This document shows positions 247-22,222 of a stretch of DNA of 30,773 nucleotides, in pieces. A model generated the notes under the pieces. The model ran no database searches. It was given only the letters and a program-made list of their open reading frames with translations, and was not told the DNA's origin. The position numbers and the translations under genes are program-made. The stretch is from a virus: the IMG/VR virus record IMGVR_UViG_3300042991_000725, positions 123,632 to 154,404 of that record; one strand, given 5' to 3'. The first letter of the stretch is position 1; each line of letters begins with the position of its first letter.

Positions 247-340
247 TGTGGAAGTTTTACCGGAGTTGGTACTGAAGAGATTCAAATGGTCCAAACTTGA
301 GAATCGTGTTACATAAAACCTGCATGTAAAAGGAATGCAA

Positions 341-2190: not shown

Positions 2191-3148
2191 ACTATTTATT
2201 TGTCAAGTCTTGGCATCTCCTGAAATTAGATTCCCTATTTTTAGGAAATCTTTTGAATCTATCTTTTATGCGACAGGACTTGATTATTCAGAATTCCAGC
2301 ACGTTGTTTTTGTGGATTGGAAAAAGATTCCTAAAACTGCGGAAATGTATTTGAAGTGGTTCTGTGGGATTCATAAGAATATTTCAGTATTTGATCATCG
2401 TGGAACGTGGGCTAACGATATTAATTGGAGTTTTCAAAAAGCGTGGCTTGACGATTTCAAATGGGTTGCGTGTTTTCATGACGATGTTTACAATGATACC
2501 GATGATTGGTTTGTAAAACTTGAGGCGGCTTATGAGGACAAACCCAACGTTGGCGTCATAACATCAACCGACATTATCTACAGAAAAACTGCAAGCTCAT
2601 ACCCTGTAGCTAGGCCCGGATACTATAAAGACGTTTATGAAAATAGCTGGGATGTTGGCAATATATTTCAGTTTAACAAATTTCGTGTTGATTGGAGGTA
2701 TGGTAAAATTTTTGATGAATGGAATGAAACCTTAGAGAATTATTTAGATTATCCGTCTGGTCCAGTAAAGACATTTTCGTCTTGGTCTTGTGTTATGGTT
2801 TTAAGGTCTGAACTTGCTAGAAAGCTACATGCTGAAAATTGGGTCCACTGGACCTTGCTGAATGAGCTCGATCTGAACATGCAGACGATGATGCTTGGCT
2901 ATTATAATTCATGGTTTCCGAAATGGGAGACTGAGCATCATAGAGACGACCCAAGCCATCCTGTGACTAGATCAAATTCATTAATAAAAGATTATAAAGA
3001 CGTGGCGCACAAGGCTTTTGAAAATAAGTGGGGGTTTAGCCATTTAGCGAAGAAGGAAGAGGTGGATCGTATAAGGAAACTTACAGAAGGGACGCTGCTC
3101 CGTGAGTTTATAGGCGAAAAATACACATACGATTGGGATTATTTATAA
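2183..3148 (+). CDS. Putative GT-A-like glycosyltransferase, copy 2 of a tandem pair
   Basis: Paralogue of the preceding gene. It shares the acidic pair in VACFHDDVY (D100-D101), GVITSTDIIYRK, FQFNKF, LDYPSGPVK, WVHWTLLNELDLN, an EHHRDD element, and HKAFENKWGFSH. Both proteins end in a similar aromatic tail (YDWDYL here, FDWQYF there). The start is the ATG at 2183, eight bases inside the upstream gene. No strong Shine-Dalgarno is seen, so translational coupling is likely. A reading from a TTG at 2165 is less likely. The two copies have diverged across most positions, so they probably act on different acceptors or donors rather than being a recent redundant copy. Function is inferred. Confidence 0.6.
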   Translation: MNKLFICQVLASPEIRFPIFRKSFESIFYATGLDYSEFQHVVFVDWKKIPKTAEMYLKWFCGIHKNISVFDHRGTWANDINWSFQKAWLDDFKWVACFHDDVYNDTDDWFVKLEAAYEDKPNVGVITSTDIIYRKTASSYPVARPGYYKDVYENSWDVGNIFQFNKFRVDWRYGKIFDEWNETLENYLDYPSGPVKTFSSWSCVMVLRSELARKLHAENWVHWTLLNELDLNMQTMMLGYYNSWFPKWETEHHRDDPSHPVTRSNSLIKDYKDVAHKAFENKWGFSHLAKKEEVDRIRKLTEGTLLREFIGEKYTYDWDYL

Positions 3149-3933
3149 TGGCCTTAATAAATGGCAGACAATCTATGACCGTTGTTATCACTGGTCGAAA
3201 TGATGGTTATTATGTCAAGCCGGACATTTACTACAAGATAAACAAGTACATTGAGAGTCTCAATAGGTCTTTTGGTCGCATAGAGAAAGATATAATATTT
3301 GTTGAATATAACAATCCAGAAAATGAACCTCATTTGTTTGAAAAGGTAAGGGGGAATAAGATTCGATGGATTGTTGTGCCACCGTCGTTTCATAAAACAG
3401 TAACCAATTTGGACTATATGTCGTTTTGTGAATTTTTTGCTAAAAACATAGGGATGAGAAGGACATCAGTAGATTGTGATTTTATTCTTGTTGGCAATCC
3501 CGACATTATTTTTAGAGATGGTTTTGCTAGAACACTTGAAAAAAGAAATTTATATCTTGGGGCTAAGTGGCATATGTTAAAGGGTATGAATGCGTGTCGT
3601 GATAAAAAGGACGCAAGTGTTCACGGTGCTCTTGGCGACTTTATGATTTTCGATAGAGAGTCGTGTTTCGAACTTAGGGGGTTTAGGCAAGCAGTAATAT
3701 GGGGAGGAATGGATACTAGATTTGCGTATGACTGGGTTGCAAGCAAAAGGAAGGTGATTGAAATGAGCAATTTTATTTTGCTCCATGAAGATCACGACAA
3801 AGATAGTCAATCACTTTTTGATCAGCGAAGGAAGAGAGAAGACAATAGAGCAAGAGGCGTTTTGGACAATCCGCCAGAAAACAGTCAAGATTGGGGATTC
3901 CCTCAAGTGGACTTTCAAGAGGTGATAGAATAA
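3148..3933 (+). CDS. Glycosyltransferase family 2-like protein
   Basis: The start is the ATG at 3148, overlapping the preceding TAA by one base. The N-terminal TVVITGRNDGYY stretch resembles the first beta strand and nucleotide-binding loop of GT-A/GT2-like proteins that begin with ITxRNDxY. Later come CDFILVGNPDIIFRDG, where an N-x-D could serve as the metal site, and GDFMIFDRESCFELRGF, typical of the region where GT2 enzymes position the acceptor. It has about 261 residues and no membrane segment, so it would be a soluble enzyme. It belongs to the same run as the tandem pair upstream but is not close to them in sequence. Donor and acceptor are unknown. Confidence 0.62.
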   Translation: MALINGRQSMTVVITGRNDGYYVKPDIYYKINKYIESLNRSFGRIEKDIIFVEYNNPENEPHLFEKVRGNKIRWIVVPPSFHKTVTNLDYMSFCEFFAKNIGMRRTSVDCDFILVGNPDIIFRDGFARTLEKRNLYLGAKWHMLKGMNACRDKKDASVHGALGDFMIFDRESCFELRGFRQAVIWGGMDTRFAYDWVASKRKVIEMSNFILLHEDHDKDSQSLFDQRRKREDNRARGVLDNPPENSQDWGFPQVDFQEVIE

Positions 3934-3934
3934 T

Positions 3935-4573
3935 ATGCCTATCGACAAAAATACTGTAGAGATGGTTCACGAATATTGGATGGACAACAAGACGTATGAA
4001 ATTTGGATACAGGACGAAGATTCTTCGTGTAATGGTGGCAATGGTGAATCTGGAATAACCAACACGTCTGCCATTAGGGTGATTAAGAATCTCAATATGC
4101 TCAAAGGCTATATGTCTAACGGCAATTTGGCGAGAGTCCATTTGTATAGTATAGGAGGAAGTGTTGAAGATGGGCTTGCAATTTATGATACCATTATGTC
4201 TATGCCTTACAAAGTCGTCATGTATTGCTATGCTTACGTTCCAAGTATGGCTTCTGTTGTTTTGCAGGCCGCAGACGAAAGAATCTTAATGCCATCAGCA
4301 TACTTGATGCTTCATCATGGTGAGATCAATGTTGGAGAAGGCAGTCAGGCGGCGTATGCTACTGTTGATTTTTGTAAGAAATTGGACAGTAAAATTCTTG
4401 ACATCTATGCTAATAGGGCGGTGCGTGGTCCAAAATTTAAAGGCAAGTCTGTTAGTTTTGTTAGAAAGAAATTTGACGAAGCGATGAACTCTAAGGGCAA
4501 TTTATATTTGAGTCCAGAAGAGGCTATTGAGTGGGGGTTGGCAGACTCTATAGTTAAAGGAAAATCTCTATGA
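3935..4573 (+). CDS. ClpP-fold serine protease (ClpP/SppA-like), possibly altered active site
   Basis: The 212-residue length and motif order fit the ClpP/crotonase fold. VHLYSIGGSVEDGLAIYD matches the INSPGG-like loop and following helix. Next is YVPSMASVVL with the expected nucleophile S104, then LMLHHGEI with the expected general base H127, and finally YLSPEEAIEWGLADSIV, the ClpP C-terminal signature. Aligned to that signature, the position normally held by the catalytic aspartate appears to be asparagine (GNLYLSPEEA), so activity may be reduced or use another acid. Phage ClpP-like proteases usually sit beside portal and capsid genes as prohead proteases. Here it lies inside a sugar cluster, and a separate prohead protease is encoded at 15919. 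Its target is unknown. It overlaps the next gene by ATGA. Confidence 0.75.
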   Translation: MPIDKNTVEMVHEYWMDNKTYEIWIQDEDSSCNGGNGESGITNTSAIRVIKNLNMLKGYMSNGNLARVHLYSIGGSVEDGLAIYDTIMSMPYKVVMYCYAYVPSMASVVLQAADERILMPSAYLMLHHGEINVGEGSQAAYATVDFCKKLDSKILDIYANRAVRGPKFKGKSVSFVRKKFDEAMNSKGNLYLSPEEAIEWGLADSIVKGKSL

Positions 4574-5334
4574 ACTATGTCGATATAATCAAAAACAATA
4601 AAGAGGCGTTTGTTTCTAATTTTTATCCCAATAAACTTGGCCGTTGGTCTGAAGTCATCTATACTTATGACGATAGCAAAGAGCCAAAGATTCACGAAAT
4701 AGATATTTATAATATAATGAAAAGAGTAGAAAATAGAGACTATGAAAGTATGGGATTTCCAGACTTGGCTCCTGTTTTCCACGAAACGGTCAAGCGGCTC
4801 ATGTCTGTATCGAACAAGCTTAATGTTGCAAATTTTGGAGCTCTTCTGGGTGCATGGACAGCTCCCTATTTGTTTTATGAGTCTTTAGACAATATAGATG
4901 TTTATGAGCTTAGGCCAACAAACATCGAGCATCCTAAAATCAACGTAATATATAAAGATATGACTATGGAGCCATTGGACAAAATACGTCCAAAGTACGA
5001 CGTAATCAGCTGTATAGATTCAATTAGCCATGCTGGACTTGGCAGATATTCTAGTCTTGTTAGTCCAAATGCAGACATTAATATGGGCAAAAGAGTTTGT
5101 GGTTTATTGCGTCCCGGCGGCTATCTTATTATTGCTATAACGTGTGTGCTCAATGAAAGTGATGGCGGTATTATATTTAATATTCAGCGCAACTATACTA
5201 AGCATAGAATATCACTCTTAACAGAGGGCTTGGAACTAATAGAATGTTTGACAGAAGATTCCAAGCTAAAGGTTTTGCGTTCGGACATCCCGTCTGTTCG
5301 TAGGATGTTTTTATTTAGGAAGAGTAAACAATGA
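4570..5334 (+). CDS. DUF268-like protein (putative methyltransferase fold)
   Basis: A 254-residue soluble protein. The central and C-terminal part matches the pattern I associate with DUF268: ISHAGLGRY (family EHxGLGRYGD), then an acidic segment, a long helix, LLRPGGYLIIAI, and IIFNIQRNYT followed by LLTEGLELIE (family FNxHRxY...). LRPGG-Y-L-I-I-A is the strand/turn pattern of class I methyltransferases, while the SAM-binding glycine motif is weak (NFGALLGAWT near residue 90). DUF268 proteins occur in polysaccharide gene clusters. The stop overlaps the start of the deacetylase gene, so the two are probably co-translated. The reaction is not established. Confidence 0.62.
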   Translation: MNYVDIIKNNKEAFVSNFYPNKLGRWSEVIYTYDDSKEPKIHEIDIYNIMKRVENRDYESMGFPDLAPVFHETVKRLMSVSNKLNVANFGALLGAWTAPYLFYESLDNIDVYELRPTNIEHPKINVIYKDMTMEPLDKIRPKYDVISCIDSISHAGLGRYSSLVSPNADINMGKRVCGLLRPGGYLIIAITCVLNESDGGIIFNIQRNYTKHRISLLTEGLELIECLTEDSKLKVLRSDIPSVRRMFLFRKSKQ

Positions 5335-5972
5335 ATGTTATAGCAATAGGTGCTCATATCGACGATATAGTTATCGGCTGTGGGGGAACACTATCAAAGT
5401 TTGTAGACAGAGGGGCGCGTGTTTTTGGTTTGACAATGACCAATTCGGAGACTCATTTTAACGAACGCGACATACATCGGACAAGCGAGGATGCTCATTG
5501 TGAAGAAAAAATGGCTTCTAAAATTATCGGCTATGATATTTACCAGTTTGATAATTTAGATATAAATGTTGGCGAGTTGTGCTACAGTGCTAGTTTGATG
5601 AAAAAGATAGAGTCTATACTTTTTGAAAATCATATAGATTATGTTTTTACTCATTGGCGCAACGATATAAATACGGACCATGCAGAGTGTTTTAAGATAG
5701 TAAGGACTGCGGCTAGGCATACAAAAAACGTATTGACATTTAGGACCAACTGGTATTGTGATGCAACAGCGCCAATTATCGAAAATGTTTATTCCAACAT
5801 AGATTCTACAATTTATCGAAAGGTAGACGCTTTGCATTGCTTTAAGACCGAGATAGACAATCGTGGAGAAATTTGGTTGCGTAGTTTCATCGATTATAAT
5901 GAGACATTGGGTTTTTGGCGTGGTGCTAAATTTGTTGAGGCTTTTGAGTGTGTTAAGATGGAGATGCCATAA
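5331..5972 (+). CDS. PIG-L/LmbE-family N-acetyl-sugar deacetylase
   Basis: The N-terminus has the zinc-binding AHIDD motif (H9, D11, D12) after a hydrophobic strand, then IVIGCGGTLSKF, the usual helix of PIG-L enzymes. A second motif, HWRNDINTDH (H108, D112, D116, H117), supplies the remaining metal and catalytic positions. The 213-residue length is normal for the family. These enzymes remove N-acetyl groups from GlcNAc-type residues on lipids, nucleotide sugars or small thiol precursors. In this cluster a glycan or sugar-nucleotide substrate is likely. Both starts and stops overlap neighbours (ATGA at 5331, TAATG at 5972), placing it firmly in the polycistronic unit. Confidence 0.88.
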   Translation: MNVIAIGAHIDDIVIGCGGTLSKFVDRGARVFGLTMTNSETHFNERDIHRTSEDAHCEEKMASKIIGYDIYQFDNLDINVGELCYSASLMKKIESILFENHIDYVFTHWRNDINTDHAECFKIVRTAARHTKNVLTFRTNWYCDATAPIIENVYSNIDSTIYRKVDALHCFKTEIDNRGEIWLRSFIDYNETLGFWRGAKFVEAFECVKMEMP

Positions 5973-6577
5973 TGGGACAACTTCAGAAGGGCAGACAATA
6001 TGACGAATTTTTGCTTGAATCGTTTGAATCTATTATTGAAAAATTTGAAATAAATAGTTATGTTGAGACTGGATTTCGCCATGCTATTTATATAGAAAAA
6101 TTACACAACAAATACAAGCATTTATTTGTTGGAGGTGCCGAAATAGACTCGGCGTGTTGTGAGTGCGCGTCTGGTTATTTAGGTAAAAGTAGTAGGTCGA
6201 TTTTAGAACAGTCAGATTCTGTAGTTTTTTTACGTAAACATATTGGAGGATTCCCCTCTCCTATATTGTTTTTTTTAGACGCAAATACTGAAGGTCAAGG
6301 AGCTAGGACTCCGGTTCAGGAAGAATTGAGATGTATCGCAGATGTATGCAGCAAATGTGTTGTTGTTATACACGATTTTAAGAATACACGAAACACGAAT
6401 CATAAAGGAACCATTTCATCCATAGAGTCTATTTCTTGGTTTTTAGAAGAAAAAAGACATACGGCATTGAGGTTCAATTACAATAGCACTTACGGTTGGG
6501 CAAATGTGCCCGTTGGAGCCGCATTTGTTTGGATTGGGTTTACACGAAAAGAAGTTGACAATTATCAGCCAAATTAG
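5972..6577 (+). CDS. Methyltransferase-like protein (class I fold, unclear subfamily)
   Basis: A 201-residue protein with a recognisable but weak class I methyltransferase layout. INSYVETGFRHAIYIEKL stands where a SAM-binding strand and turn (EtGxxxG) would be, and GGAEIDSACCECAS gives an acidic strand end that could bind ribose. ILFFLDANTEGQG resembles the FxLDAH strand found in TylF/CmcI-like and related enzymes, and VVVIHDFKNT resembles the later hydrophobic strand with an acidic end. The second glycine of the SAM loop is missing, so substrate or cofactor use is uncertain. It starts on the stop codon of the deacetylase gene. An AGGAGGG ribosome site for the next gene begins right after it. 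Confidence 0.5.
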   Translation: MGQLQKGRQYDEFLLESFESIIEKFEINSYVETGFRHAIYIEKLHNKYKHLFVGGAEIDSACCECASGYLGKSSRSILEQSDSVVFLRKHIGGFPSPILFFLDANTEGQGARTPVQEELRCIADVCSKCVVVIHDFKNTRNTNHKGTISSIESISWFLEEKRHTALRFNYNSTYGWANVPVGAAFVWIGFTRKEVDNYQPN

Positions 6578-6586
6578 GAGGGCAAA

Positions 6587-7519
6587 ATGAACGTTCTTAT
6601 TACTGGGATTCTTGGTGTTATAGGCAGTGCTTTGGAAAGAGAGTTTCGCAACAGAAATGTGAATGTTTTTGGTTGTGATTTGGAACATACCAGCAAAGAC
6701 CGCTATATGCGTGTAGACATTGCCGACTTTAGAGAAATGAGAAGGGTTATAAAAACATTTAAGCCCGACATTGTTTATAATGCGGCTGCAGAGTTTGGAA
6801 GGTGGAATGGCGAAGATTATTATGAGCAGCTATATAGAACTAATTTTATAGGAACAAAGAACATTATCAGGCTTTCTGAGGAATACGGATTCAAAATTGT
6901 CCATTTTAGCTCTAGTGAAATATATTGTGATTACGATGGAATTATGACGGAAGATGTTCCAGACAAGGTTGTTTTGATTCCATTTAATGATTATGCCGCA
7001 TCTAAAAGGCTTAATGAATATCAGTTGACGAATAGTAGAAAGGCGTATGATACGGACTATGTGATAGTGAGACCATTTAACCTGTATGGAGAAGAGCCAT
7101 ACACGCCATACAGAAGCGTTGCTTGTAGATTTTGCTATCACGCACTTACATCTGCACCAATAACCGTGCATCGTGGACACAAAAGGTCTTCTTTATATAT
7201 AGATGATGCAGTAAGAACTCTAGCGAATATTATATACAACTTTAAGCCGGGAGGTGTATACAATCTAGGAGACGCCACAAGAACACATACGATAGAGGAA
7301 CTTGCAGATATAATATGGCGTTGTACTGGAGCTGACCCGTGCTTGATTAAATATGCCGATCCAGAGCCGATGACAACATTAAGCAAGATTACAGATACAA
7401 AGCGCGCAGAGCAAGATCTGGGTCATGAGGTCACAGTTAGTCTTGAAGATGGCATAGAAAAAACTGTGTCTTGGATGGAGAAAAAATATGGACTTATTCG
7501 TCCGAGGAATAGCCGATGA
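6587..7519 (+). CDS. NAD-dependent epimerase/dehydratase (extended SDR)
   Basis: The N-terminal Rossmann motif TGILGVIGS has glycines at 7, 10 and 13. FKPDIVYNAAAEFG, VHFSSSEIY (catalytic serine region) and YAASK (Y136, K140) follow in the order of nucleotide-sugar epimerases and dehydratases, then VRPFNLYGEEP, which matches the RxxNxYGP segment. At 310 residues it has the usual size. Family members epimerise or dehydrate NDP-sugars. It is preceded by a strong AGGAGGG site eight bases before the ATG. It would supply a modified sugar to the flanking glycosyltransferases. The particular sugar cannot be assigned. Confidence 0.88.
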   Translation: MNVLITGILGVIGSALEREFRNRNVNVFGCDLEHTSKDRYMRVDIADFREMRRVIKTFKPDIVYNAAAEFGRWNGEDYYEQLYRTNFIGTKNIIRLSEEYGFKIVHFSSSEIYCDYDGIMTEDVPDKVVLIPFNDYAASKRLNEYQLTNSRKAYDTDYVIVRPFNLYGEEPYTPYRSVACRFCYHALTSAPITVHRGHKRSSLYIDDAVRTLANIIYNFKPGGVYNLGDATRTHTIEELADIIWRCTGADPCLIKYADPEPMTTLSKITDTKRAEQDLGHEVTVSLEDGIEKTVSWMEKKYGLIRPRNSR

Positions 7520-7620
7520 ACGGAGATCGTAGGTGTTTTGTTCCAAGTGTATACGAAAGAAGGGCCTATTCTAAGAATGGCGAAGATGGCATTCTTATGT
7601 ATATTTTAATCATAATTTAG
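7516..7620 (+). pseudogene. 34-codon remnant of a YSxxGEDGIL-type methyltransferase-like gene
   Basis: An ATG at 7516 overlaps the epimerase stop (ATGA) and opens a 34-residue frame ending in TAG at 7620. It contains the sequence YSKNGEDGILMYI, which resembles the N-terminal YSQxGEDGIxxxIF motif of a family of small SAM-dependent methyltransferase-like proteins in glycan clusters. The frame stops right after the motif, where about 200 more residues would be expected, and the next gene's ribosome site follows at once. I read it as the surviving 5' end of a deleted gene whose start may still couple translation. A functional micropeptide cannot be excluded. Confidence 0.5.
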
Positions 7621-7629
7621 GGAGGATGT

Positions 7630-8766
7630 ATGGATATTTTGTGGTGTGGCCCAGTTGCAGACTCTTCTGGTTATGGACATGCTTCTAGGCACTATTTGCA
7701 CTGGCTTCATAAAGAATACAAGGATGCCATAAATGTTCGCGTTGTGCAACGTAACTTTTTCAATGGCGAACTCATCCCTATTTCTAAGGATTACCCAGAG
7801 ATAACAGAAATGAGTGTGGCCCAACATGACTCGTATTCGTGTTATATTCAAAACTTGACTCCAAATACATTTGCATTAGATGATATTGCCAAATTTCACA
7901 TAGGGATGACAACTTTTGAAACAGACGGATTGCCACGCAATTGGGTTTCTAATATGCAAATGATGGACGCTATAATAACTTATACAGAATTTAATCGTAC
8001 CACATTTCAATCTTCTGGTGTAACTCGGCCGATTTATGTCGTTCCGCATGGAGTGGATACAGATGTTTTTAAGCCAAATGGCCCGTGTTTCCAAAAAATA
8101 AGGGAAACATTGGCCGGGTCCTATATATTCGGAAGCGTTTTTGACTGGACTGAGAGGAAAAACCCAGAACTGTTGCTTGAGGCATATTTTAAAGCGTTTG
8201 AAGGTAAATCTGACGTGGCCCTTATTCTAAAGTGTTTTTATCAGTTCCCTATAAGTCGGTCTAGAAAAATCATGATGGAAAAAATAGATGCTGTAAAGAG
8301 CAAGATGGGCACGTCAAAGTTGCCTCCTGTCTACATCATTAGCGACGTTCTTTCTGATATGCAAATGCCTATGTTTTATAATTCAATAGATGCATTAGTG
8401 AGCTGTTCGGGGGGGGAGGGGTGGGGTTTGTGTTTTAGCGAAGGTATGGCGTCTGGCCTTCCCGTTATTGCTACGAATTGGTCTGGCAATACAGAATTTA
8501 TGAATTCGGACAATAGTCTTTTGATCGATTGTACAATCAGAAATATTCCAGATAAATTCGTAGCCATACATCCGGATTACTCTGGACAAAAATGGGCATT
8601 CCCAGAATATAACGATCTTGTGGATAAGATGAGATTTTTATATCATAATAGGCAGAAGGGCGCAGAGCTAGGGGCTGTAGCCAGAAAAGACATTGAAGAG
8701 AAATGGACATGGAAACATGCGGTTGATAAGTTATCGTCGATATTAACTTCTATGTTTGGAGAATAA
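7630..8766 (+). CDS. Glycosyltransferase, GT4-like (GT-B fold)
   Basis: A 378-residue GT-B enzyme. The N-terminal domain starts with DILWCGPVADSSGYGHASRH, a glycine-rich acceptor-side loop. The linker has the classic VVPHGVDTDVFKP sequence. The C-terminal nucleotide-sugar domain has a FGSVFDWTERKNPELLLEAY strand/helix and the EX7E signature EGWGLCFSE (E263 and E271) followed by GMASGLPVIAT. The ribosome site is GGGAGG just before the ATG at 7630. A run of eight G falls in the codons just before the EX7E motif. The enzyme adds a sugar to an unknown acceptor, and its stop overlaps the ribosome site of the next gene. Confidence 0.9.
   Translation: MDILWCGPVADSSGYGHASRHYLHWLHKEYKDAINVRVVQRNFFNGELIPISKDYPEITEMSVAQHDSYSCYIQNLTPNTFALDDIAKFHIGMTTFETDGLPRNWVSNMQMMDAIITYTEFNRTTFQSSGVTRPIYVVPHGVDTDVFKPNGPCFQKIRETLAGSYIFGSVFDWTERKNPELLLEAYFKAFEGKSDVALILKCFYQFPISRSRKIMMEKIDAVKSKMGTSKLPPVYIISDVLSDMQMPMFYNSIDALVSCSGGEGWGLCFSEGMASGLPVIATNWSGNTEFMNSDNSLLIDCTIRNIPDKFVAIHPDYSGQKWAFPEYNDLVDKMRFLYHNRQKGAELGAVARKDIEEKWTWKHAVDKLSSILTSMFGE
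8409..8416 (+). repeat. Eight-G homopolymer in the GT4 gene
   Basis: Eight consecutive G encode part of C-S-G-G-E just before the catalytic EX7E motif. G-rich DNA continues after it (GGGG, T, GGGG). Such a tract could slip, but the encoded glycines belong to the conserved family motif, so the run may be fortuitous. Confidence 0.9.
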
Positions 8767-9463: not shown

Positions 9464-9958
9464 ATGGATAGAGTAATCAGGATAATAAAAGACACCAGAG
9501 AACCTAGCTCATTCACTTTCGCTGGTCTACAAAAAGTAGATGCTGTAGATATTTTGAAATTAGATTTTGGAGATTATACAACGGAGAAGCTTAAGAACCT
9601 TGTGGTCATTGAAAGAAAGGCTAAAGGGGACCTCTTCCATACATTGGGGAGCGACCATGAGAGATTCGCAAAAGAACTTGATAGGGCCAGAGCGGTTGGT
9701 GTAAAGTATTTTTTTATTGTTATAGAGGCGTCTTTGGAAGGTGTGTATGAGGGGAACTGGGTTTTTATAAAAGGCAAAGGCAGGACTATGACGTTCCCTT
9801 ATGGTAGTAGTGCGGTATCCCAGCTCATCAATTATTCACTAAAGGACGGGATGCGCATTATCCCGGTGTATGCTGACAATATAGGCACTTCTAGAAAAAT
9901 CATCCGCGATATTCTGATTAAGGCTGAAGAGATGTTGGAGAAAGGAGTTCTTAAATAA
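9464..9958 (+). CDS. ERCC4-type nuclease
   Basis: The 164-residue protein has the ERCC4/XPF nuclease pattern: IIKDTREP with D10, then LDFGDYTTE (GDY at 36-38), then VVIERKAKGDLFHTL (ERK at 50-52). These form the DxxE...GDxnxERKxxxD metal-dependent active site of the PD-(D/E)XK superfamily. No helix-hairpin-helix region is attached, so it is a stand-alone nuclease domain. It follows the methyltransferase directly, and its TAA overlaps the terminase ATG by one base (TAATG), so the two are translationally coupled. A role in processing branched or concatemeric DNA before packaging is reasonable, as for other phage resolving nucleases, but is inferred. Confidence 0.85.
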   Translation: MDRVIRIIKDTREPSSFTFAGLQKVDAVDILKLDFGDYTTEKLKNLVVIERKAKGDLFHTLGSDHERFAKELDRARAVGVKYFFIVIEASLEGVYEGNWVFIKGKGRTMTFPYGSSAVSQLINYSLKDGMRIIPVYADNIGTSRKIIRDILIKAEEMLEKGVLK

Positions 9959-12900
9959 TGTATTATACGTTTGATACTAAAAACCCATTTTACGATCTTA
10001 TAGTTTCAAAGCTGCCAATTGAAGAGCAGATCGTTCATGTTGCAATGAGAAATCCTGCGTTTGCATGTAAGTACATTTTCAATACTGAGATTTTTGCGTT
10101 CCAGAACCTGATGTTCAAAATTTTTGCAGAAAAACCGTTTCCTTTGCTGGTTGCAAACAGAGGCTATGGCAAATGTGTAACTGGTGATACTAATTTAGTC
10201 ACAAATTCTGGTTTTGTTAAAATATCCGAAATCGTGGGTGATTGTGATGTAATGGTTAAAAAGAAGCATGATAATTTATTGTTACATGGTGAAAACGGAT
10301 ACAAAAAAGTGAAATATTCGTGGAATAATGGAGTGTCTGACACGCTAAAGATTGTTACTAGAAGTGGGTTCCAGATTGAGGGGACATATAACCATCCTGT
10401 TCGTGTCGTTAGGAGTGGTAAATTAGAATGGATTGATTTAAAAGACGTTGTTGTCGGCGACAGACTTCCAATTATAAGGGACGACACTTGGTTTGATGAG
10501 ACCAACAAGCTTACTCAAGATGAAGCCTATTTATTTGGGTTGCTTGTGGGAGATGGTGGATATACTGTTCGTGGCAGCGTTTCTTTTACAAACAAGGATA
10601 CTTTCCTTGTTAGTGAAGCAATGCGCTTATCCAAGAAAGTTTTTGGCAAGAGTTTTGTAGATGTATCCTCTGCACCGTATGGTCACAAATTGTATGGGAC
10701 TGATATTTGGGATAGTTTGTTTAATAAATATGGATTTAATTCTTCTGTGTGTGGCGAAAAAGATTTTCCCACTTCGGTTTTGTCGGCCCCTAAGCGCTCG
10801 ATGATATCGTTTATTCAAGGGCTTTTTGATACGGACGGTTATGTTGGAGTGGCCGAGATTGGTATTACGATGAAGTCGGAAAATATAATACGTAGACTTC
10901 AATATATATTAACATTTTTTGGTATTATCTCCAATGTTAGGATTAGATACAACAAGAAATACGAAACAAGTTATTTTTGTTTATCTATGTTTGGTAAAAA
11001 TGCAAGACTGTTTTTAAGCAAGATAGGATTTAGATTAAAGCGCAAGCAGACTATTGGCGTATTGAGATTGTCTAAAAAAACCAATTCTAACACAGACACA
11101 ATACCTAATAATTTAATTAAAGATGTAGTTTTGAAAATAAGAAATAGGTATGCAGAGATTTGTCGGCACAAAATTAGATCTGCCGGGAATATAAAGGACT
11201 ACGAATGTACTTATGAATTTTTACAAAAAATTTTGAAAACCGCAATATCTTGCAATAAAAATAACGTTTGTAGTGATTCTGAAATAAAGTACATTCAGTC
11301 TATTATGCATAAACATTATTTTTATGATACGGTAAAAAAAATATCTGCTAGTAAAAACAAAACATACGACGTTAATATACCGAAAGACCATTCTTTTAAT
11401 AGTAACGGATTCATATCTCACAACAGCTTTGCTCTTGCCGTACATGCTGTATTAACCGCGCTATTCAATCAGGGATCTAAGACAATACTTGTGGCTAGAA
11501 ATTATAGACAGTGCGTTGACGGCAAGTCTCTATTATTTAGTGACAACGGCATTATTAGAATGAGAGACGTGTCGGTAGGATACGTTGTTGCCGATGGGGA
11601 TAGCGTTAACAAGGTGCGTCATCATTGGGAAGTTGCAGAACAGCAGACGACAACAATTACAACAAACAATGGGTATTTTATTCATGGTGCCGACAATCAC
11701 AAGGTTCTCAAGAATGGTTTTTGGTCTACATTGAGCCATACTGAGGTTGGAGATGCCGTTCAGATATTCTACGGACAGGATTTATTTTCTAAAAAAGACG
11801 TTGATCTGTTACCTATGGGTTTTAATCGCGTATCTGTCCAGGACAAGAGATTGCAGTTACCAAAAAGTGTCGACAAAGATCTTGCATGGATTTTGGGGAA
11901 GATATTCTCTAAGAGGGCGTCGGAGGATAATGGCACTATTCGTTTCAATATTAAAGATGCCACTACGAGAGACAGATATTATAGGAAAGTGTCTAGTATA
12001 TTCAACTACAAGGTTATTCGGGAGTATAAAAAGAAAAGGAGAAGTTTTTACGCCGGAAAGATCATAAACAAAAATATTTGCAATTTCCTTAGAGAGAATG
12101 GTATTGATTTAACTAGGCGAATGTTGCCGTCATGCATATTGATGTCCAAGAAGGAAACTGTTTGTTCTTTCATATCTTCGCTTATTGAAGAGTCGGTTTC
12201 AATTGATAGGTTACGGAAGTCTATAGTTTTTAGGCACTGGTCAAATCCTCTGCTTAAAGATGTCCAGATTGTTTTACTTAATTTTGGGATTATTTCTAAT
12301 AGGGCATATGATCGTATTGAAATCAAGGGTCTTTCAAATATTGCCAATTTTGCCAAAAACTTTACAATAAAAGGTCAAGAGAACAACAACAAGTTAAATA
12401 CAATTTTATCAAAGTCTGATGATAGAGTTGGGCATGACATACTCGTCTTTGATGATAGAATTCGGTTTATATTAACGCACAATAAGGTCAATGTTGATGA
12501 GTGGAGAGGTGAGGCCATCGACGGCTTTATTCCTGTCAAGAAGCTTAAGGATATCGCGGATAAGTATAATTTGTCGAGTGTGTTGGTAGACTATATTTTG
12601 CCAAATTGTTTTTGTGATAAGGTTATTTCTATAGAGAAGTCTCTTGGGATAACTTATGATGTCGAGATTGACGAGTCTTCAAGATATTTCGCCAATGGAT
12701 TTATTAATCACAATTCGCAGCTGGTGTTTGATTATATTACAACCATATACAATAAGTCCGAAATTTTACAGAATATAACGAATAAGCCTCCTACAAAGGC
12801 CACATCTTCTTGTTTATTCACTATTGGAGATTCTTACATAAAGGCTATTCCTCTTGGTGATGGTTCTGGCGTCCGTGGCGAACGTGCTACAAATATCCTT

Positions 12901-14166
12901 GTTGACGAGTATCCGTTTGTTCCAGAAGATGTTTTTCAGACGGTTATCCGTGGTTTTGCTGCAGTTTCTGGCGATCCAGTACAAAGGGTGCGGATGAAAG
13001 CAAGGATTAATGAATATATTAGAAAGGGACTTCCTGTTCCTAAGGAGCTTAGGTTGTCGAGTAACCAGATATTGTTGACCGGAACTGCGTATTATGAGGA
13101 TAACCATTTTACTAAGACTTATTATAAATACAGAAATCTTATTGATAATAAATACTGTGGTTCAGTTGGAGATGTAGACCAAAGTGTTGCCGGAAATGAA
13201 TATGTTGACTACAAGGATTATGCCGTACTTCATTTTGATTATACCATGCTCCCAGATGGTTATATGGAAGAAAAGCAGATTAGCCAAGCCAAGCTTACGA
13301 TGAGTGAGTCTGCATTCGCAATGGAATATATGAGTAAGTTCCAATCAAATTCTCAAGGTTTTTATAAGCATAGTGATGTCCAAAAATGTGAAAGTGCTGG
13401 TACAGACAGATATGTTGTTGAGGTGCGTGGGAATCCTGCGTGCCAGTATGTGCTTGGAATAGATCCATCAAGTGGCGGAGTAGCAGAATTCGGTGTATGT
13501 ATAATGAAAATTACTAATGAATTTAAGCCAGTCGTTTTTGCAAAAGGTATGGAAAAATATACATTTCCTGAAGCATTAGAAGAAATTAAAAGGTTGCTGC
13601 GTATGTTTAATATTGTCAAGATATGCATGGACTCCCAAGGTGGAGGTTTTACTGTAAGGGATTTGCTTAGAGATTCAAGGATTATGGGCAGTTATCCTTT
13701 GATATTTGAATCTGCATCTGAAAACAAAACTGCGACTGGAAGATATATATTAGAGTTGGTCAATCCAACATCTGCTTGGAACCTTAAGGCTAACCAGGAT
13801 ATGCAATCAGACCTTCATCATAGAAGGGTCTTATTTCCAGCATATGGTTATGTATCTAATGATCCAACTGAAATTAGAGAAGCCGAAGACGCTGAAGACG
13901 AAATGCGCAAAATGAGGATGCAGTTAGAGAGTATAGAGCTTTCGATGACAAAAAACGGCTTTTCTCATTTCGATGTTCCGTCTAGAAAAATATCGGAGGG
14001 TGATGCAAAAAGGATTATTAGAATGAGGAAAGACTTATTTTCGGCGTTGCTTTTGGCTAATTATGCTGCTAATCAGATGTTAACAACTCCTTTAACTCAA
14101 TCTATATATAGCAATCCAGACAATTTTGGTGGTTGGGCTTCAGAATTTACTGGTCGAAATGGGTAA
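9958..14166 (+). CDS. terL: Terminase large subunit with two inteins
   Basis: The packaging motor ATPase/nuclease. The 1402-residue precursor contains two in-frame inteins (residues 73-489 and 519-919). Removing them gives an extein protein of about 584 residues, a normal TerL size. Walker A, NRGYGK-S, is rebuilt only after the first intein leaves. The second intein leaves at RNYRQ-SQLVFDYI. Walker B is ILVDEY (D983, E984). The nuclease domain has LGIDPSSGG (D1169), KICMDSQGGG (D1225) and KDLFSALLLANYA (D1359), a plausible metal triad. A conserved LLTGTAYY stretch fits motif III. No small terminase subunit is visible upstream. Portal follows after about 50 bases. Confidence 0.95.
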   Translation: MYYTFDTKNPFYDLIVSKLPIEEQIVHVAMRNPAFACKYIFNTEIFAFQNLMFKIFAEKPFPLLVANRGYGKCVTGDTNLVTNSGFVKISEIVGDCDVMVKKKHDNLLLHGENGYKKVKYSWNNGVSDTLKIVTRSGFQIEGTYNHPVRVVRSGKLEWIDLKDVVVGDRLPIIRDDTWFDETNKLTQDEAYLFGLLVGDGGYTVRGSVSFTNKDTFLVSEAMRLSKKVFGKSFVDVSSAPYGHKLYGTDIWDSLFNKYGFNSSVCGEKDFPTSVLSAPKRSMISFIQGLFDTDGYVGVAEIGITMKSENIIRRLQYILTFFGIISNVRIRYNKKYETSYFCLSMFGKNARLFLSKIGFRLKRKQTIGVLRLSKKTNSNTDTIPNNLIKDVVLKIRNRYAEICRHKIRSAGNIKDYECTYEFLQKILKTAISCNKNNVCSDSEIKYIQSIMHKHYFYDTVKKISASKNKTYDVNIPKDHSFNSNGFISHNSFALAVHAVLTALFNQGSKTILVARNYRQCVDGKSLLFSDNGIIRMRDVSVGYVVADGDSVNKVRHHWEVAEQQTTTITTNNGYFIHGADNHKVLKNGFWSTLSHTEVGDAVQIFYGQDLFSKKDVDLLPMGFNRVSVQDKRLQLPKSVDKDLAWILGKIFSKRASEDNGTIRFNIKDATTRDRYYRKVSSIFNYKVIREYKKKRRSFYAGKIINKNICNFLRENGIDLTRRMLPSCILMSKKETVCSFISSLIEESVSIDRLRKSIVFRHWSNPLLKDVQIVLLNFGIISNRAYDRIEIKGLSNIANFAKNFTIKGQENNNKLNTILSKSDDRVGHDILVFDDRIRFILTHNKVNVDEWRGEAIDGFIPVKKLKDIADKYNLSSVLVDYILPNCFCDKVISIEKSLGITYDVEIDESSRYFANGFINHNSQLVFDYITTIYNKSEILQNITNKPPTKATSSCLFTIGDSYIKAIPLGDGSGVRGERATNILVDEYPFVPEDVFQTVIRGFAAVSGDPVQRVRMKARINEYIRKGLPVPKELRLSSNQILLTGTAYYEDNHFTKTYYKYRNLIDNKYCGSVGDVDQSVAGNEYVDYKDYAVLHFDYTMLPDGYMEEKQISQAKLTMSESAFAMEYMSKFQSNSQGFYKHSDVQKCESAGTDRYVVEVRGNPACQYVLGIDPSSGGVAEFGVCIMKITNEFKPVVFAKGMEKYTFPEALEEIKRLLRMFNIVKICMDSQGGGFTVRDLLRDSRIMGSYPLIFESASENKTATGRYILELVNPTSAWNLKANQDMQSDLHHRRVLFPAYGYVSNDPTEIREAEDAEDEMRKMRMQLESIELSMTKNGFSHFDVPSRKISEGDAKRIIRMRKDLFSALLLANYAANQMLTTPLTQSIYSNPDNFGGWASEFTGRNG
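10174..11424 (+). mobile_element. Intein 1 in Walker A, with intact-looking LAGLIDADG endonuclease
   Basis: 417 residues inserted between K72 and S490 of the Walker A motif. It starts with C73 in CVTGDTNLVTNSGF (block A) and has GTYNHPV with H146 (block B). It ends YDVNIPKDHSFNSNGFISHN followed by Ser, the block F/G and +1 residue of a standard cis-splicing intein. Between the splicing blocks are two LAGLIDADG motifs, FGLLVGDGG (D199) and QGLFDTDG (D293), with the acidic residues expected for cleavage. It therefore looks like a bifunctional, potentially mobile intein. Insertion in the P-loop means unspliced terminase cannot hydrolyse ATP. Confidence 0.95.
11512..12714 (+). mobile_element. Intein 2 after Walker A, with degenerate endonuclease
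   Basis: 401 residues inserted between Q518 and S920, only 29 extein residues after intein 1. It begins with C519 (CVDGKSLLFSDNG) and ends YDVEIDESSRYFANGFINHN before Ser, so the termini are intact. Block B reads GADNHKVL (H581 kept, the usual Thr replaced by Ala). The two regions where LAGLIDADG helices belong read LAWILGKIFSKRAS and FISSLIEESVSID: the GDG/DxDG acidic-glycine ends are lost. The endonuclease is probably inactive while splicing may persist. It seems an older insertion than intein 1. Confidence 0.9.
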
Positions 14167-18342: not shown

Positions 18343-19350
18343 ATGCTTAAGGCTGATGTAAAAACAATTGATCTTGTGAAGCGCATTGGTAGTGCTGACA
18401 TCAACATTCACCGTGAAGCGATGCAGGCGTTGGCTGCTGAGATCAAAGAGCCTATTCAGCGCCTTGTGTTCGACGGCGATATCTCTGAGCAGATTTTCGT
18501 CGAAATTCCGGCCGCTGAGTACGGCGGAAGCGTTCCGTTCCCCAAGGATTTCATCACCGCTGGCAATGAAGATGATTTTGTTGCCTATAAGATGCCTAAG
18601 CAGGGTGGTGTTCCTGAGAGACAGGTTGAAGGCGATGAGATTTGGGTGCCGACTTACGAGATTGCCAACTCGGTTGACTGGAAGCTCTCGTATGCTCGCA
18701 ATAGCCGTATTGATGTTATCAGCCGTGGTTTGGCTGCTCTGACTGCCGGATTCGTCAAGAAGAACAATGACGATGGCTGGACAACTATTATCACTGCGGC
18801 GGCTCAGAAGGGCACTATGTATGCTGACTCGTCTGCTTCTGCTGGTGTGTTTACCCCTGCAGCCCTCAGCAGCATGAAGACTGGCGCAATGAGAGCTGGT
18901 GGAAATGCTACGTCGCTGTGGAAGTTCGCAATCACCGACGTGTTCATCAGCCCAGAGGCTCTTGAAGACATTCGTGGTTGGGATCTCACGACCGACAAGG
19001 TTGATGAATACACCATGCGCGAGATCTTTGTGAACGACGGACTTGCCAAGATTTACGGCACTCTCGTCCACGTTTACAAGGAGTTTGGTGAAGGTCAAGA
19101 GTATCAGACGATTTACGGCGACACTTCTGGTAAGACAAATATGGCCGCTGGCGACCAGGAAATTTTCATCGGCCTTGACCTTGATCCTCAGAAGCGTTCT
19201 AACACATTCGTTCGCCCTGTTAGCCTGCCTCTTCAGATTTTCGAAGACTCTGCGACTCTTCACCGCAAGCAGAAGGCCGGTTATTATGCATGGATGGAGC
19301 TGGGAAATGCAGTAAACGATACAAGGGCAACTTATATTGGCTCATTTTGA
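18343..19350 (+). CDS. Major capsid protein (HK97-fold expected)
   Basis: A 335-residue protein following portal, protease/scaffold and decoration genes. Order, size and high-expression codon use (GCC, CTT/CTC, AAG, CGT) point to the major capsid protein. The N-terminus is helical (DLVKRIGSADINIHREAMQ), consistent with a delta-domain-like lead. The middle has GDEIWVPTYEIANSVDWKLS, typical of the E-loop/spine-helix junction, then SRIDVISRGLAALTAGFVKK (long helix) and a series of P- and A-domain-like strands, ending in ATLHRKQKAGYYAWMELGNA, a good match to the closing A-loop region. A strong GGAAAAGGAG site precedes it and a terminator follows. The exact fold is inferred, not seen. Confidence 0.82.
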   Translation: MLKADVKTIDLVKRIGSADINIHREAMQALAAEIKEPIQRLVFDGDISEQIFVEIPAAEYGGSVPFPKDFITAGNEDDFVAYKMPKQGGVPERQVEGDEIWVPTYEIANSVDWKLSYARNSRIDVISRGLAALTAGFVKKNNDDGWTTIITAAAQKGTMYADSSASAGVFTPAALSSMKTGAMRAGGNATSLWKFAITDVFISPEALEDIRGWDLTTDKVDEYTMREIFVNDGLAKIYGTLVHVYKEFGEGQEYQTIYGDTSGKTNMAAGDQEIFIGLDLDPQKRSNTFVRPVSLPLQIFEDSATLHRKQKAGYYAWMELGNAVNDTRATYIGSF

Positions 19351-19376: not shown

Positions 19377-19415
19377 AAAAATCCTCAATGAAAAATTGGG
19401 GATTTTTATTTTTCC
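19377..19415 (+). terminator. Rho-independent terminator after capsid gene
   Basis: AAAAATCCTCAA pairs with TTGGGGATTTTT (12 bp, one T-G pair) around a seven-base loop TGAAAAA, followed by more T (TTTATTTTT). It ends the head-gene transcript just downstream of the capsid gene. The A-rich left arm would allow some function in both directions. Confidence 0.85.
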
Positions 19416-19417
19416 CA

Positions 19418-19445
19418 TTGACAATTTGAACTTCTATAGTATACT
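19418..19445 (+). promoter_or_regulatory. Sigma70-type promoter for the HTH-array nuclease
   Basis: TTGACA (19418-19423), 16 bases, TATACT (19440-19445). It lies just after the capsid terminator and about 40 bases before the nuclease start. The near-consensus boxes suggest host RNA polymerase use. Confidence 0.75.
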
Positions 19446-19486: not shown

Positions 19487-21277
19487 ATGAGCAGGGTTTT
19501 TTGGACGAAACGTGACGAATATGTTTTGAGGAAGATGACAGAAATAGGATACTTTGCAAGTCAGATAGGGAATGTACTTGGTAAAAGTATTGGCGCTATT
19601 GACAGCAAGCGTTTTCATGATAATATAAAAAGTGGGGGAAGTGTTGATGTTGTAGATGACGAGGAGGTTAAGGCTATTTTAGCTGAAGCCGACGCCGCCA
19701 ATCCTCCTATTATCGCTGTTCAAAAGGCAAGATTCCAACACTGGACGCCAGAACAAGACAGCCAGCTTCGTGATCTTGTGGAAAAGAAATATAGAGACAT
19801 CGAGATTGCCAAGATATTTGGTACGACAAAAAAGTCTGTTGAATTTAGGCGCTATTATCTGGATATATCAAAGCGCAAGCGTTGCAAAAATTGGACAGAA
19901 GAGGAAAGGCAAGTTCTTAAATCTATGTATGAGGCTGGGAAGTCAGATGACGAAATCGCTGGAAAATTGGGTCGTCCATGGTCCTCTATAGAATTTACCA
20001 GAAAGCAGATGAAACTTATTAGAGAAGAACAGAGAAGGGCTAGAGTTGATAAATTGGCCAGTATGCGCGAAGCCGATATTCGAAAATACTTTGCTGAATA
20101 TGCCAGCCGAAAATTACCTAGCGAACTGGCCAAGGACTTAAATATTGGCCGGGAGCGTATTCTCAAACTTGGCAATGAGTACCATATTGATGTTTTTGTT
20201 TATGCGAAATCTTGTGTCATTGAAGATATTGAGCTTATCATCTGCAGGTTCGATGATGGAGAAGGTCTTGACGATATTGCCAGAGAGTACGAAATTGGCG
20301 ATAAACAGATGTCTGACATTTTCTATTCTTACTATGTCAAAGAAGTTAAGCGGGTCGATTGGGCAAAGTTGCCAGAAGACGACATTCGTGCTTATCTTAA
20401 AGAGACTATGGATTATGAAAAAGTGGCTGAGAAGTTTGGACTTACCGTACTTTGTCTGCAGAATCGCAACTATCATAACTGGCTGATTGATTGCCGATGT
20501 TACGAAATTGGTGAAGAATTGGCCGGTAAGATTAAGGCGGATTTAGAGGGTGGGTTGGGCTATGACGAAATAGCCGAAAAGTACGATGTGAGTTGTGACG
20601 CTATAGCTAGGAAAAATGTTACTTATTGGCACGTTAAACAAACTAATATTTTTGATTGGACTAACATTAACCATGAGGCCGTGAAGGAATTTCTTGAAAG
20701 TAGTGGAAGTTTGATTGAAACGGCAAAAAAGTTTAATATACCAAAAAACGCTTTATATTATTGGGCCAGAAAGAACAAGGTTTATGCTATTTATTGGACA
20801 CAAGAAGAATATGATTTGGTAAAGAAAACGCTTGAAGAGACTAGGGATTTTTACGAAACTTCGAAATTATGCGGTGTTGGTGTAAGGAGGATAGCAAGGC
20901 AGAACAGAAAGAATGGCAGATTTCCTTCTTTTTGCGTAGATATGCCTTGTGAATTCGGAAAACAAACCTTTGGCAAAGATGGCATTCTGTATCGCTCCAT
21001 ATTTGAAGCGTCCGTAGCCGACTATCTATTCGACGCCAAAATTCCTTATGAAGACCAAAAGCAGGTCTGTAAGGAAAGGTGTTGGCGTTGCGATTTTTAC
21101 CTGCCCAAGCAGAAATTATGGCTTGAAGTTGATGGGCTTGGAGACACTAGAAAAGAATATGATCGCACCTATCAAGTCTACCTAGATAAGATAAACTATT
21201 ACAAATCAAACAATTACAACTATTTTGTTTTGCCGCAATTCAAATGGCAGACTGTATTATTGTCTCTTATTTCTTGA
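19487..21277 (+). CDS. Free-standing nuclease: tandem HTH array plus PD-(D/E)XK-like domain
   Basis: A 596-residue protein with an unusual build. Residues 1-480 contain about nine helix-turn-helix/Myb-like modules of roughly 45-50 residues. The first ones begin with Trp (FWTKRDE at 5, HWTPEQD at 85, NWTEEER at 135) and later ones have DIAREYEI, VAEKFGL, EIAEKYDV and TAKKFNI recognition-type helices. A further WTQEEYD module starts near 437. Residues about 490-596 look like a nuclease: ILYRSIFEASVADYL with E507, RCDFYLP with D536, LEVDG with E547 and D549, and K568 downstream, fitting a Vsr/DUF559-type PD-(D/E)XK core. It probably cuts long sites like a homing endonuclease. It has its own promoter and GGAG site and lies just before the tmRNA. 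Confidence 0.78.
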   Translation: MSRVFWTKRDEYVLRKMTEIGYFASQIGNVLGKSIGAIDSKRFHDNIKSGGSVDVVDDEEVKAILAEADAANPPIIAVQKARFQHWTPEQDSQLRDLVEKKYRDIEIAKIFGTTKKSVEFRRYYLDISKRKRCKNWTEEERQVLKSMYEAGKSDDEIAGKLGRPWSSIEFTRKQMKLIREEQRRARVDKLASMREADIRKYFAEYASRKLPSELAKDLNIGRERILKLGNEYHIDVFVYAKSCVIEDIELIICRFDDGEGLDDIAREYEIGDKQMSDIFYSYYVKEVKRVDWAKLPEDDIRAYLKETMDYEKVAEKFGLTVLCLQNRNYHNWLIDCRCYEIGEELAGKIKADLEGGLGYDEIAEKYDVSCDAIARKNVTYWHVKQTNIFDWTNINHEAVKEFLESSGSLIETAKKFNIPKNALYYWARKNKVYAIYWTQEEYDLVKKTLEETRDFYETSKLCGVGVRRIARQNRKNGRFPSFCVDMPCEFGKQTFGKDGILYRSIFEASVADYLFDAKIPYEDQKQVCKERCWRCDFYLPKQKLWLEVDGLGDTRKEYDRTYQVYLDKINYYKSNNYNYFVLPQFKWQTVLLSLIS

Positions 21278-21284
21278 ATAGTAC

Positions 21285-21315
21285 TTGACAATATGGTAAT
21301 TGACTGTATTATATT
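21285..21315 (+). promoter_or_regulatory. Promoter for the tmRNA
   Basis: TTGACA (21285-21290) is followed by TATTAT (21307-21312, 16-base spacer) or TATATT (21310-21315, 19-base spacer). The tmRNA begins about 20 bases later, giving a short leader that RNase P would remove. The -35 matches that of the nuclease promoter at 19418. Confidence 0.65.
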
Positions 21316-21335: not shown

Positions 21336-21701
21336 GGGGATGACACAGATTCGATGCATATGCAATAATGTGACTGCATGACATGGGTGATGGGCCGGCC
21401 ATGTAAAAAGCCTATCAAAAAAAAGTGGCAACATCATGAAACTGGCTCCGGCCAGACTCGCTGCTTAAGGTGGCGACCGAAAGCGTGAGATATCCGTGGT
21501 AGCGTGAGTAGGACAGTACAACGGAATATGCTTGGTGATATTGGCAGACGGTTTTATCCCAAGGTGAAATTTAAATCGTCAAGACCTCCTATAGATGCTG
21601 GTTTCGTGCTTCAGGAGAAGATGTGAAGCGTTAGCCAGACAATCATGTAGACGCTACATTTGAGCGTACAGCACACGAGGGGGCAGTACCCTCCATCTCC
21701 A
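21336..21701 (+). ncRNA. ssrA: Phage-encoded tmRNA (transfer-messenger RNA)
   Basis: The ends form a seven-base-pair tRNA acceptor stem, GGGGATG with CATCTCC, including the G3-U70 pair that alanyl-tRNA synthetase reads, then a discriminator A. A T-stem GAGGG/CCCTC (21677-21681 with 21689-21693) encloses loop GGCAGTA. A long helix 2 pairs CTGCATGA (21374-21381) with TCATGTAG (21643-21650), extended by ATGT/ACAT. The 5' side has GATTCGAT and the conserved GTAAAAAGCC ... A-rich track before the tag, as in E. coli. The 366-base length is normal. The 3' CCA is not encoded. The T-loop lacks the usual TTC and A, which is odd. The RNA would rescue stalled ribosomes with SmpB. No smpB is seen here. 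Confidence 0.95.
21427..21468 (+). other. tmRNA tag-peptide reading frame
   Basis: Read from GGC at 21427 the frame gives GNIMKLAPARLAA then TAA. With the charged Ala this makes AGNIMKLAPARLAA. The ending LAA matches the hydrophobic degron recognised by ClpXP/ClpAP-type proteases. The resume codon is inferred from the A-rich upstream stretch and comparison with tags that start with a Gly codon (for example Bacillus). Confidence 0.75.
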
Positions 21702-21722
21702 AATTATATACTGTAGTTGTTG

Positions 21723-21753
21723 GCGGACGGTCTTAACGGCCGTTCGCTTTTTT
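21723..21753 (+). terminator. Rho-independent terminator after tmRNA
   Basis: GCGGACGGTC, loop TTAAC, GGCCGTTCGC gives a ten-base-pair stem (two wobble pairs), followed directly by TTTTTT. It lies about 20 bases after the tmRNA 3' end. Confidence 0.92.
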
Positions 21754-21779: not shown

Positions 21780-21816
21780 TTGTCAACTTACATCTCAATT
21801 CGGTGTATATTATAGT
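21780..21816 (+). promoter_or_regulatory. Possible promoter for downstream virion genes
   Basis: TTGTCA (21780-21785) precedes TATATTATAGT (21806-21816). The spacing of about 20 bases to TATATT is long, so this is tentative. It would restart transcription after the tmRNA terminator for the structural genes from 21881 on. Confidence 0.4.
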
Positions 21817-21817
21817 A

Positions 21818-21850
21818 GGGACAGAGTATTGTCGTACTGTGCCCTTTTTT
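21818..21850 (+). terminator. Hairpin plus T-run in the leader of the 21881 gene
   Basis: GGGACAG and CTGTGCCC pair with one bulge around an interior loop (possible inner pairs GTA/TAC), followed by six T. It may terminate read-through, or act as a 5' leader attenuator if the promoter just upstream is real. Confidence 0.6.
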
Positions 21851-21880: not shown

Positions 21881-22222
21881 ATGCCTAATCTAGAAAAACA
21901 CGACTATACTCATGGAGTCACAACGGTCACGGATCAGAGCAATAGCGCGGCTTCTGTTACCGCCACTGTTGCTTCTGACTGGGTTAAGCAATATGGTCTT
22001 GTTGCGTTCTCTGGCGGTTCTACCGATCAGGCATACAAAGTTGAAGTGAAGATTGCCGGAGTAACAAAGATTACCCATTATGGCGCTGCAGGGACCACTG
22101 CTGGATTAAGTTTTGCTGCTCCGTATGTTCCTCATACCAGCTTCAATGAGGCCCTATCTGTTGTGACTACTCCAGATATCACCGGGAAGTGTGTTGCAAA
22201 CATGTCTTACATAGAGTATTAA
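21881..22222 (+). CDS. Small beta-rich protein, probable virion component
   Basis: 113 residues, rich in Thr, Ser, Ala, Gly and Val, predicted all-beta: SVTATVASDWVKQYGLVAFSGG, AYKVEVKIAGVTKITHYG, LSFAAPYVPHTSFNEALSVV in separate strands. No Cys cluster, signal peptide or membrane segment. I do not recognise a family. It starts the structural transcript after the tmRNA, with AGGAG seven bases before the ATG, and is followed 15 bases later by the large beta-solenoid-like gene, so it may be a small tail or decoration protein working with that product. Confidence 0.55.
   Translation: MPNLEKHDYTHGVTTVTDQSNSAASVTATVASDWVKQYGLVAFSGGSTDQAYKVEVKIAGVTKITHYGAAGTTAGLSFAAPYVPHTSFNEALSVVTTPDITGKCVANMSYIEY

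Follow-up and report, generated by a model that had tools for sequence, protein, structure and literature searches.

RESULTS

Organization of the locus

The window (the whole stretch of DNA analysed, 30,773 nucleotides) comes from a tailed phage and is the right-hand end of a virus record of 154,404 bases. The neighbourhood comprises a terminase gene with an intein, the portal and capsid genes and further virion genes. The major capsid gene is separated from the next virion gene, which encodes a protein of 113 aa, by an insert of 2.3 kb. This insert contains a gene for a nuclease with an array of helix–turn–helix (HTH) modules, adjoined by a tmRNA gene. The features are itemized in Table 1.

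Table 1. Features of the insert, its flanking genes and the modules of the nuclease (positions in the window)
Feature	Position	Strand	Evidence
Major capsid protein, left neighbour	18343..19350	+	phrog_2522 5.5e-9; 27 relatives
Probable terminator after capsid gene, left limit of insert	19386..19413	+	Inverted repeat and T run, read by eye
Sigma-70-like promoter of nuclease, TTGACA-16-TATACT	19418..19445	+	11/12 match
HTH-array nuclease gene, 596 aa	19487..21277	+	ORF with ATG, stop-free inside; family and nuclease profile matches
HTH module 1, residues 1-50 (likely)	19487..19636	+	Leave-one-out: 26/500 shuffles reach score
HTH module 2, residues 80-132, Myb-like	19724..19882	+	0/500; Myb_DNA-bind_6 9e-4; AF2 three helices
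HTH module 3, residues 131-186, sigma-4-like	19877..20044	+	0/500; Sigma70_r4 2e-6 (whole protein); AF2 three helices
HTH module 4, residues 187-241, divergent, 3-aa insertion (likely)	20045..20209	+	36/500
HTH module 5, residues 241-290, divergent, net charge -7 (likely)	20207..20356	+	136/500; CENP-B_N 0.017
HTH module 6, residues 289-338	20351..20500	+	0/500
HTH module 7, residues 336-390	20492..20656	+	0/500
HTH module 8, residues 389-436	20651..20794	+	0/500; HTH_Tnp_1 1e-4
HTH module 9, residues 433-482	20783..20932	+	0/500
Vsr/DUF559-like PD-(D/E)XK nuclease domain, residues 482-596	20930..21274	+	E507, D536, E547, D549, K568; hhalign
Sigma-70-like promoter before tmRNA, TTGACA-16-TATTAT	21285..21312	+	11/12 match
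tmRNA (ssrA) gene, full-length Rfam match	21336..21702	+	RF00023 47.4 bits, gathering 47
Intrinsic terminator closing insert	21722..21748	+	11-bp stem, T tail
Promoter-like box TGTATATTATAGTAGGGA of next virion gene, right limit of insert	21804..21821	+	Common to L002
113-aa gene, right neighbour	21881..22222	+	40% identity to L002 9243-9497

The probable terminator at the left limit is not in the scan list, and has a counterpart after the capsid gene of the nearest relative (L002). The nuclease gene has its own promoter, and an RBS-like GGAG lies upstream of its ORF; a second promoter precedes the tmRNA gene. With up to three mismatches allowed, the box at the right limit would be expected by chance 0.07 times on average in the window. 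Its counterpart in L002, TGTATATAATAGTAGGGA, likewise stands before the 113-aa gene, and the form shared by the two is TGTATAT(T/A)ATAGTAGGGA, of which no second good copy was found in the window.

L002 is the closest of the 27 capsid relatives, with a capsid protein that is 58% identical. Its genes run from the capsid gene through a terminator-like hairpin and a promoter-like box to the 113-aa gene, with no insert. The next gene also follows close behind the capsid gene in 12 further relatives with listed ORFs, again with no insert, and a search for the nuclease in 25 relative records gave no match beyond single-HTH ORFs. The gene is thus intergenic, lies between conserved virion genes and is absent from the same place in the related phages examined, as is characteristic of a free-standing homing endonuclease. 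Because all the relatives have capsid identities of 58% or less, it is gene order, and not junctions at the base level, that defines the empty site, and they are too distant for the exact ends of the insert to be set.

The idea that the site holds a group I intron was rejected, the tmRNA being all that Rfam finds there. Nor is the stretch of 603 bp that follows the nuclease gene empty spacer, since it contains the tmRNA.

The HTH array

Residues 1-482 of the nuclease form nine tandem HTH modules, a number well above the usual, and residues 482-596 the nuclease domain. An earlier note, made from the sequence alone, had described a free-standing protein with about nine HTH modules joined to a Vsr/DUF559-like PD-(D/E)XK core with E507, D536, E547, D549 and K568. 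The position of the gene, the profile comparison and the structure prediction agree with that description: the array is firm for modules 2, 3 and 6-9 and likely but weaker for 1, 4 and 5, and the core is supported by profile comparison as well as by its sequence.

The module boundaries (about 50 aa each) were set by eye. An HMM built from the nine modules places them at residues 2-49, 82-131, 132-181, 186-238, 239-288, 289-337, 337-386, 389-435 and 433-480; as it was built from the same modules, it gives their register and has no independent significance. Each module was scored against an HMM of the other eight and compared with 500 shuffles of itself, a leave-one-out test that the boundaries chosen by eye slightly favour. 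M2, M3, M6, M7, M8 and M9 score above all 500 shuffles. A count of nine is well supported for these six and likely for modules 1, 4 and 5. An acidic linker (residues 50-81) follows module 1.

Three Pfam families exceed the curated cut-off in the whole protein (Sigma70_r4, Sigma70_r4_2 and HTH_28), and HTH models of the Myb, CENP-B and transposase types match more weakly at several sites. Pfam HTH models could be placed on M2, M3, M5 (CENP-B_N) and M8. Aligned by MAFFT without guidance, M2M3, M4M5, M6M7 and M8M9 fall into register as a two-module unit. AF2 applied to this four-row alignment of internal repeats gives two tri-helical units with a mean pLDDT of 74.9, the helices comprising residues 9-20, 25-32 and 36-50 in the first and 59-70, 75-82 and 86-106 in the second. 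The whole protein predicted from its single sequence has a pLDDT of 34. A Foldseek search with the two-module model returned mostly DNA-binding HTH proteins as its top matches, none of them as good as E 0.001. The top PDB match, both by Foldseek and by sequence, is 2LVS, a tandem-HTH protein that binds CRISPR repeats.

Modules 5-7 are net acidic (modules 6 and 7 have net charges of -1 and -3), so that some modules may be spacers. The third helix with its tail is net positive in every module, and slightly so in modules 5-7.

The nuclease domain

The residues expected of the Vsr/DUF559-like PD-(D/E)XK superfamily (an E on the first helix, a D on the second strand, an E-x-(D/K/Q) strand and a K further on) are all present, as E507, D536, E547-V-D549 and K568. 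Residues 482-596 were compared with a profile (A2) made from an alignment of ten phage nucleases that had been fetched by DNA pattern, from which the window protein was excluded. The hhalign probability is 96.9% (E 1.6e-10), against 0.1% for an unrelated capsid protein used as control. The best solved relative of A2 is the catalytic domain 3R3P (4.1e-9), which we take to be I-Bth0305I; the PDB file itself describes a mobile intron protein. Further structure matches of A2 are to the DUF559-like 3HRL, and then weakly to AbaSI and Vsr. The core also matches phrog_559 (7.8e-8). A single-sequence Pfam scan of the domain gave no match, so the domain is divergent, and no Pfam model for NUMOD, HNH or GIY-YIG appeared among matches up to E 10. 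The profile matches together with the intact residues thus identify a nuclease of the Vsr/DUF559-like PD-(D/E)XK type that stands close to the homing endonucleases of the EDxHD group.

Residues 490-579 (20954-21223) match the PADLOC candidate defence family PDC-S69 (4.1e-10), and this candidate family and the phage homing nucleases therefore share a core.

Comparison with known proteins

The window protein resembles I-Bth0305I and the EDxHD group in construction. These too are phage-borne and have a long, multi-part DNA-binding region in front of a Vsr-like nuclease, and the dimer of I-Bth0305I spans nearly 60 bp (PMC3943268). Extended DNA-binding regions of several domains are thus nothing new in this nuclease lineage. 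The window protein differs in having nine HTH modules and in being free-standing, whereas I-Bth0305I is intron-borne. It also lacks the signature histidine of EDxHD, reading EVDGLGDTRK against E(V/I)DGDYWHANP.

This histidine is also missing from the protein with the nearest core, encoded by L043 (IMGVR_UViG_3300036859_000973, 3043-3855, + strand), which is 33% identical over the domain. There the core similarly lies behind repeated DNA-binding modules, but these are four Cys-rich zinc ribbons and not HTHs. Related proteins with about three ribbons occur in Microcystis phage MaeS (QJT70403) and Mycobacterium phage Malithi (gp54). PHROG 559, which matches the core of the window protein, also matches both ribbons and core of the L043 protein. 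This family is the closest to the L043 protein; its label is HNH endonuclease, but the core is of the PD-(D/E)XK-like kind. The presence of the same type of core behind arrays of zinc ribbons and behind nine HTHs suggests that DNA-reading modules are interchangeable parts from which phages put together site-specific nucleases.

Searches of 2.9 million viral contigs, 50,697 phages, 84,980 genomes and 72,556 plasmids, although of low sensitivity to distant relatives, brought up no full-length relative. Peptide patterns from the whole protein, the C-terminal domain, modules 3-5 and modules 6-9 confirmed no relative in IMG/VR, nor did patterns from the whole protein in GTDB genomes; these scans require an exact short peptide and would miss distant relatives. 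Searches by tblastn of phages and plasmids gave only partial matches to the HTHs or the core. The DNA pattern DFYxP-4-WxEVDG occurs at one viral locus and in no genomes. A wider pattern, CDFYxP...E(V/I)DG, gave 31 loci, mostly of EDxHD-like proteins with other N-termini and none with an HTH array. No nine-HTH array was found on a nuclease in the loci and databases searched, the closest layouts being this core behind three or four zinc ribbons and arrays of three or four HTHs that lack the core. A search of the same genome for further genes with an HTH array or for an HTH nuclease gave none. The earlier note knew of no family with exactly this layout, and none came to light in the databases and literature covered here. 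The nuclease fold and the type of module are both known; for their pairing and for the number of modules, searches of databases, largely by pattern, and of open-access papers brought up no precedent.

The HTH-array phage proteins that were found are built of three or four modules and lack a nuclease. Among these are the D5-like proteins (phrog_323), with tandem Myb/sigma-like HTHs, which are the best PHROG match of the window protein (7e-25 over three stretches). It might therefore be a D5-like transcription or DNA-organizing protein with an acquired nuclease, in which the array acts as an autorepressor or regulates phage genes and cutting is secondary or lost; T4 intron endonucleases do double as autorepressors (PMC2988022). 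We consider this improbable. The D5 protein of PM135 has 255 aa with about four modules and is without a nuclease, as are the other D5-like proteins examined, whereas the window protein retains all the catalytic residues. Relatives without the nuclease gene moreover indicate that it is not needed for late expression.

Tandem HTHs are also found in the archaeal CRISPR repeat-binding protein Cbp1, to which the PDB match 2LVS corresponds, and which arranges its HTHs one after another on a single repeat (PMC10883916). Cbp1 (NF040595) differs in having three modules and no nuclease, and the window protein scores 20.1 bits against that family's cut-off of 140.

The tmRNA gene

The tag frame of the tmRNA (21427-21468) reads GNIMKLAPARLAA followed by a stop, resembles known tags and ends in LAA. 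In the acceptor stem GGGGATG pairs with CATCTCC, giving a G3-U70 pair, which is the alanine identity pair for alanyl-tRNA synthetase. The fold is more stable than those of shuffled sequences (z -2.57). CCA is not encoded, and the T loop is unusual, not being of the TTCRA kind; it is probably because of these two properties that ARAGORN missed the gene. Among 26 records, only that of the window has a tmRNA above the cut-off. No SmpB was found in the virus record, so that the tmRNA would use that of the host. tmRNAs are already known in phages (PMC4131195, PMC7162821).

A structured RNA gene next to the nuclease gene raises the idea of an RNA-directed enzyme, the repeats of which would read RNA and which perhaps acts on the neighbouring tmRNA. 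Its model would be the FASTK/RAP proteins, in which tandem helical repeats are likewise followed by a Vsr-like PD-(D/E)XK-fold domain (PMC12687428). These are, however, eukaryotic and organellar proteins with RNA-binding repeats, while the modules of the window protein match tri-helical DNA-binding HTHs (sigma region 4, Myb and transposase) and not organellar helical-hairpin repeats. We regard an RNA-directed function as very improbable.

DISCUSSION

We think it likely that the gene is selfish and encodes a free-standing homing-type endonuclease near the phage EDxHD group, in which an array of nine HTHs replaces the usual N-terminal DNA-binding part. We infer DNA binding by the array, cleavage, homing and a benefit of the tmRNA, and these might be connected as follows. 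The nuclease gene would be transcribed from a host-type promoter of its own. Lying along the DNA, the array would bring the C-terminal nuclease to one site in those co-infecting relatives in which the insert is missing. The resulting break would then be repaired from the insert-bearing genome, so that the nuclease gene and the adjoining tmRNA gene would be inherited together, the latter as linked cargo. The cleavage sites of free-standing homing endonucleases may be hundreds or thousands of bp away (PMC2988022). Counting against homing is that no second copy of the nuclease gene was found in the sequence sets searched. The missing EDxHD histidine, the net acidic modules 5-7 and the definition of the vacant site by gene order also tell against this reading.

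There are parallels in T4, where segD is flanked by capsid genes 23 and 24 and segB sits amid the tRNA genes (PMC2988022), and where SegB favours the inheritance and amplification of the tRNA gene region (PMC13096335). The window nuclease is similarly placed beside a capsid gene and a gene of translation. The Seg proteins are, however, GIY-YIG nucleases with other DNA-binding parts and no sequence relation was seen; the parallel is one of function and not of descent. The link to a tmRNA would extend the carriage of translation genes by homing endonucleases, recently described for SegB and tRNAs, to ribosome rescue.

The match to PDC-S69 and the host-type promoter of the nuclease could also be expected of an enzyme directed against rival phages or other invading DNA, acting in inter-phage exclusion or defence. 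The array would then pick a conserved target, the tmRNA would be an unrelated neighbour and there would be no role in homing. This seems unlikely to us. PDC-S69 is only a candidate family, and nucleases of such a fold serve many roles. The phage hosts several homing-type elements, as seen from the terminase intein and a second Vsr-like nuclease, and these, with a site between virion genes, fit mobile elements better. Exclusion can also be a by-product of homing, and to that extent the two readings overlap.

The proposal of a homing-type endonuclease has a stronger form, which takes up the suggestion of the earlier note that so long an array could read a site of many tens of bases. In this form all nine modules would touch consecutive DNA in register. 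The protein would then recognize some 30-50 bp module by module and end in a nuclease, and the insert would be a homing cassette with the tmRNA as cargo. We hold this form to be unlikely. If true, the protein would do with HTHs what zinc-finger and TALE nucleases do with their own modules, and would be a naturally occurring modular reader of a very long site in DNA. With its nine modules, the array would make it possible to test directly whether such a long-site reader can be built by stringing HTHs together.

Other elements in the genome and in other phages

The large terminase gene contains a LAGLIDADG intein at about 10216-11424 (+ strand) of the window, inside the ORF 9958-14166, with Pfam matches to Intein_splicing (residues 87-489) and LAGLIDADG_3. 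The terminase of L002 is apparently without an intein at that place.

The second free-standing Vsr/EDxHD-like nuclease of the genome (G000:C1:61.5-62.6 kb; L086 3497-4558, - strand) has 353 aa. It has a zinc-finger-like N terminus and an EVQGDYWHA motif, and its layout is ordinary.

In three IMG/VR loci (L054, L058 and L069) the ORFs of EDxHD-like nucleases run on into apparent RecA/UvsX-type C-terminal sequences, which suggests in-frame insertions in recA-like genes.

Finally, a block of sugar genes at 335-8766 (+ strand) of the window encodes a NeuB family sialic-acid-type synthase, a DUF268 protein and a group 1 glycosyltransferase, and possibly functions in surface or glycan modification.
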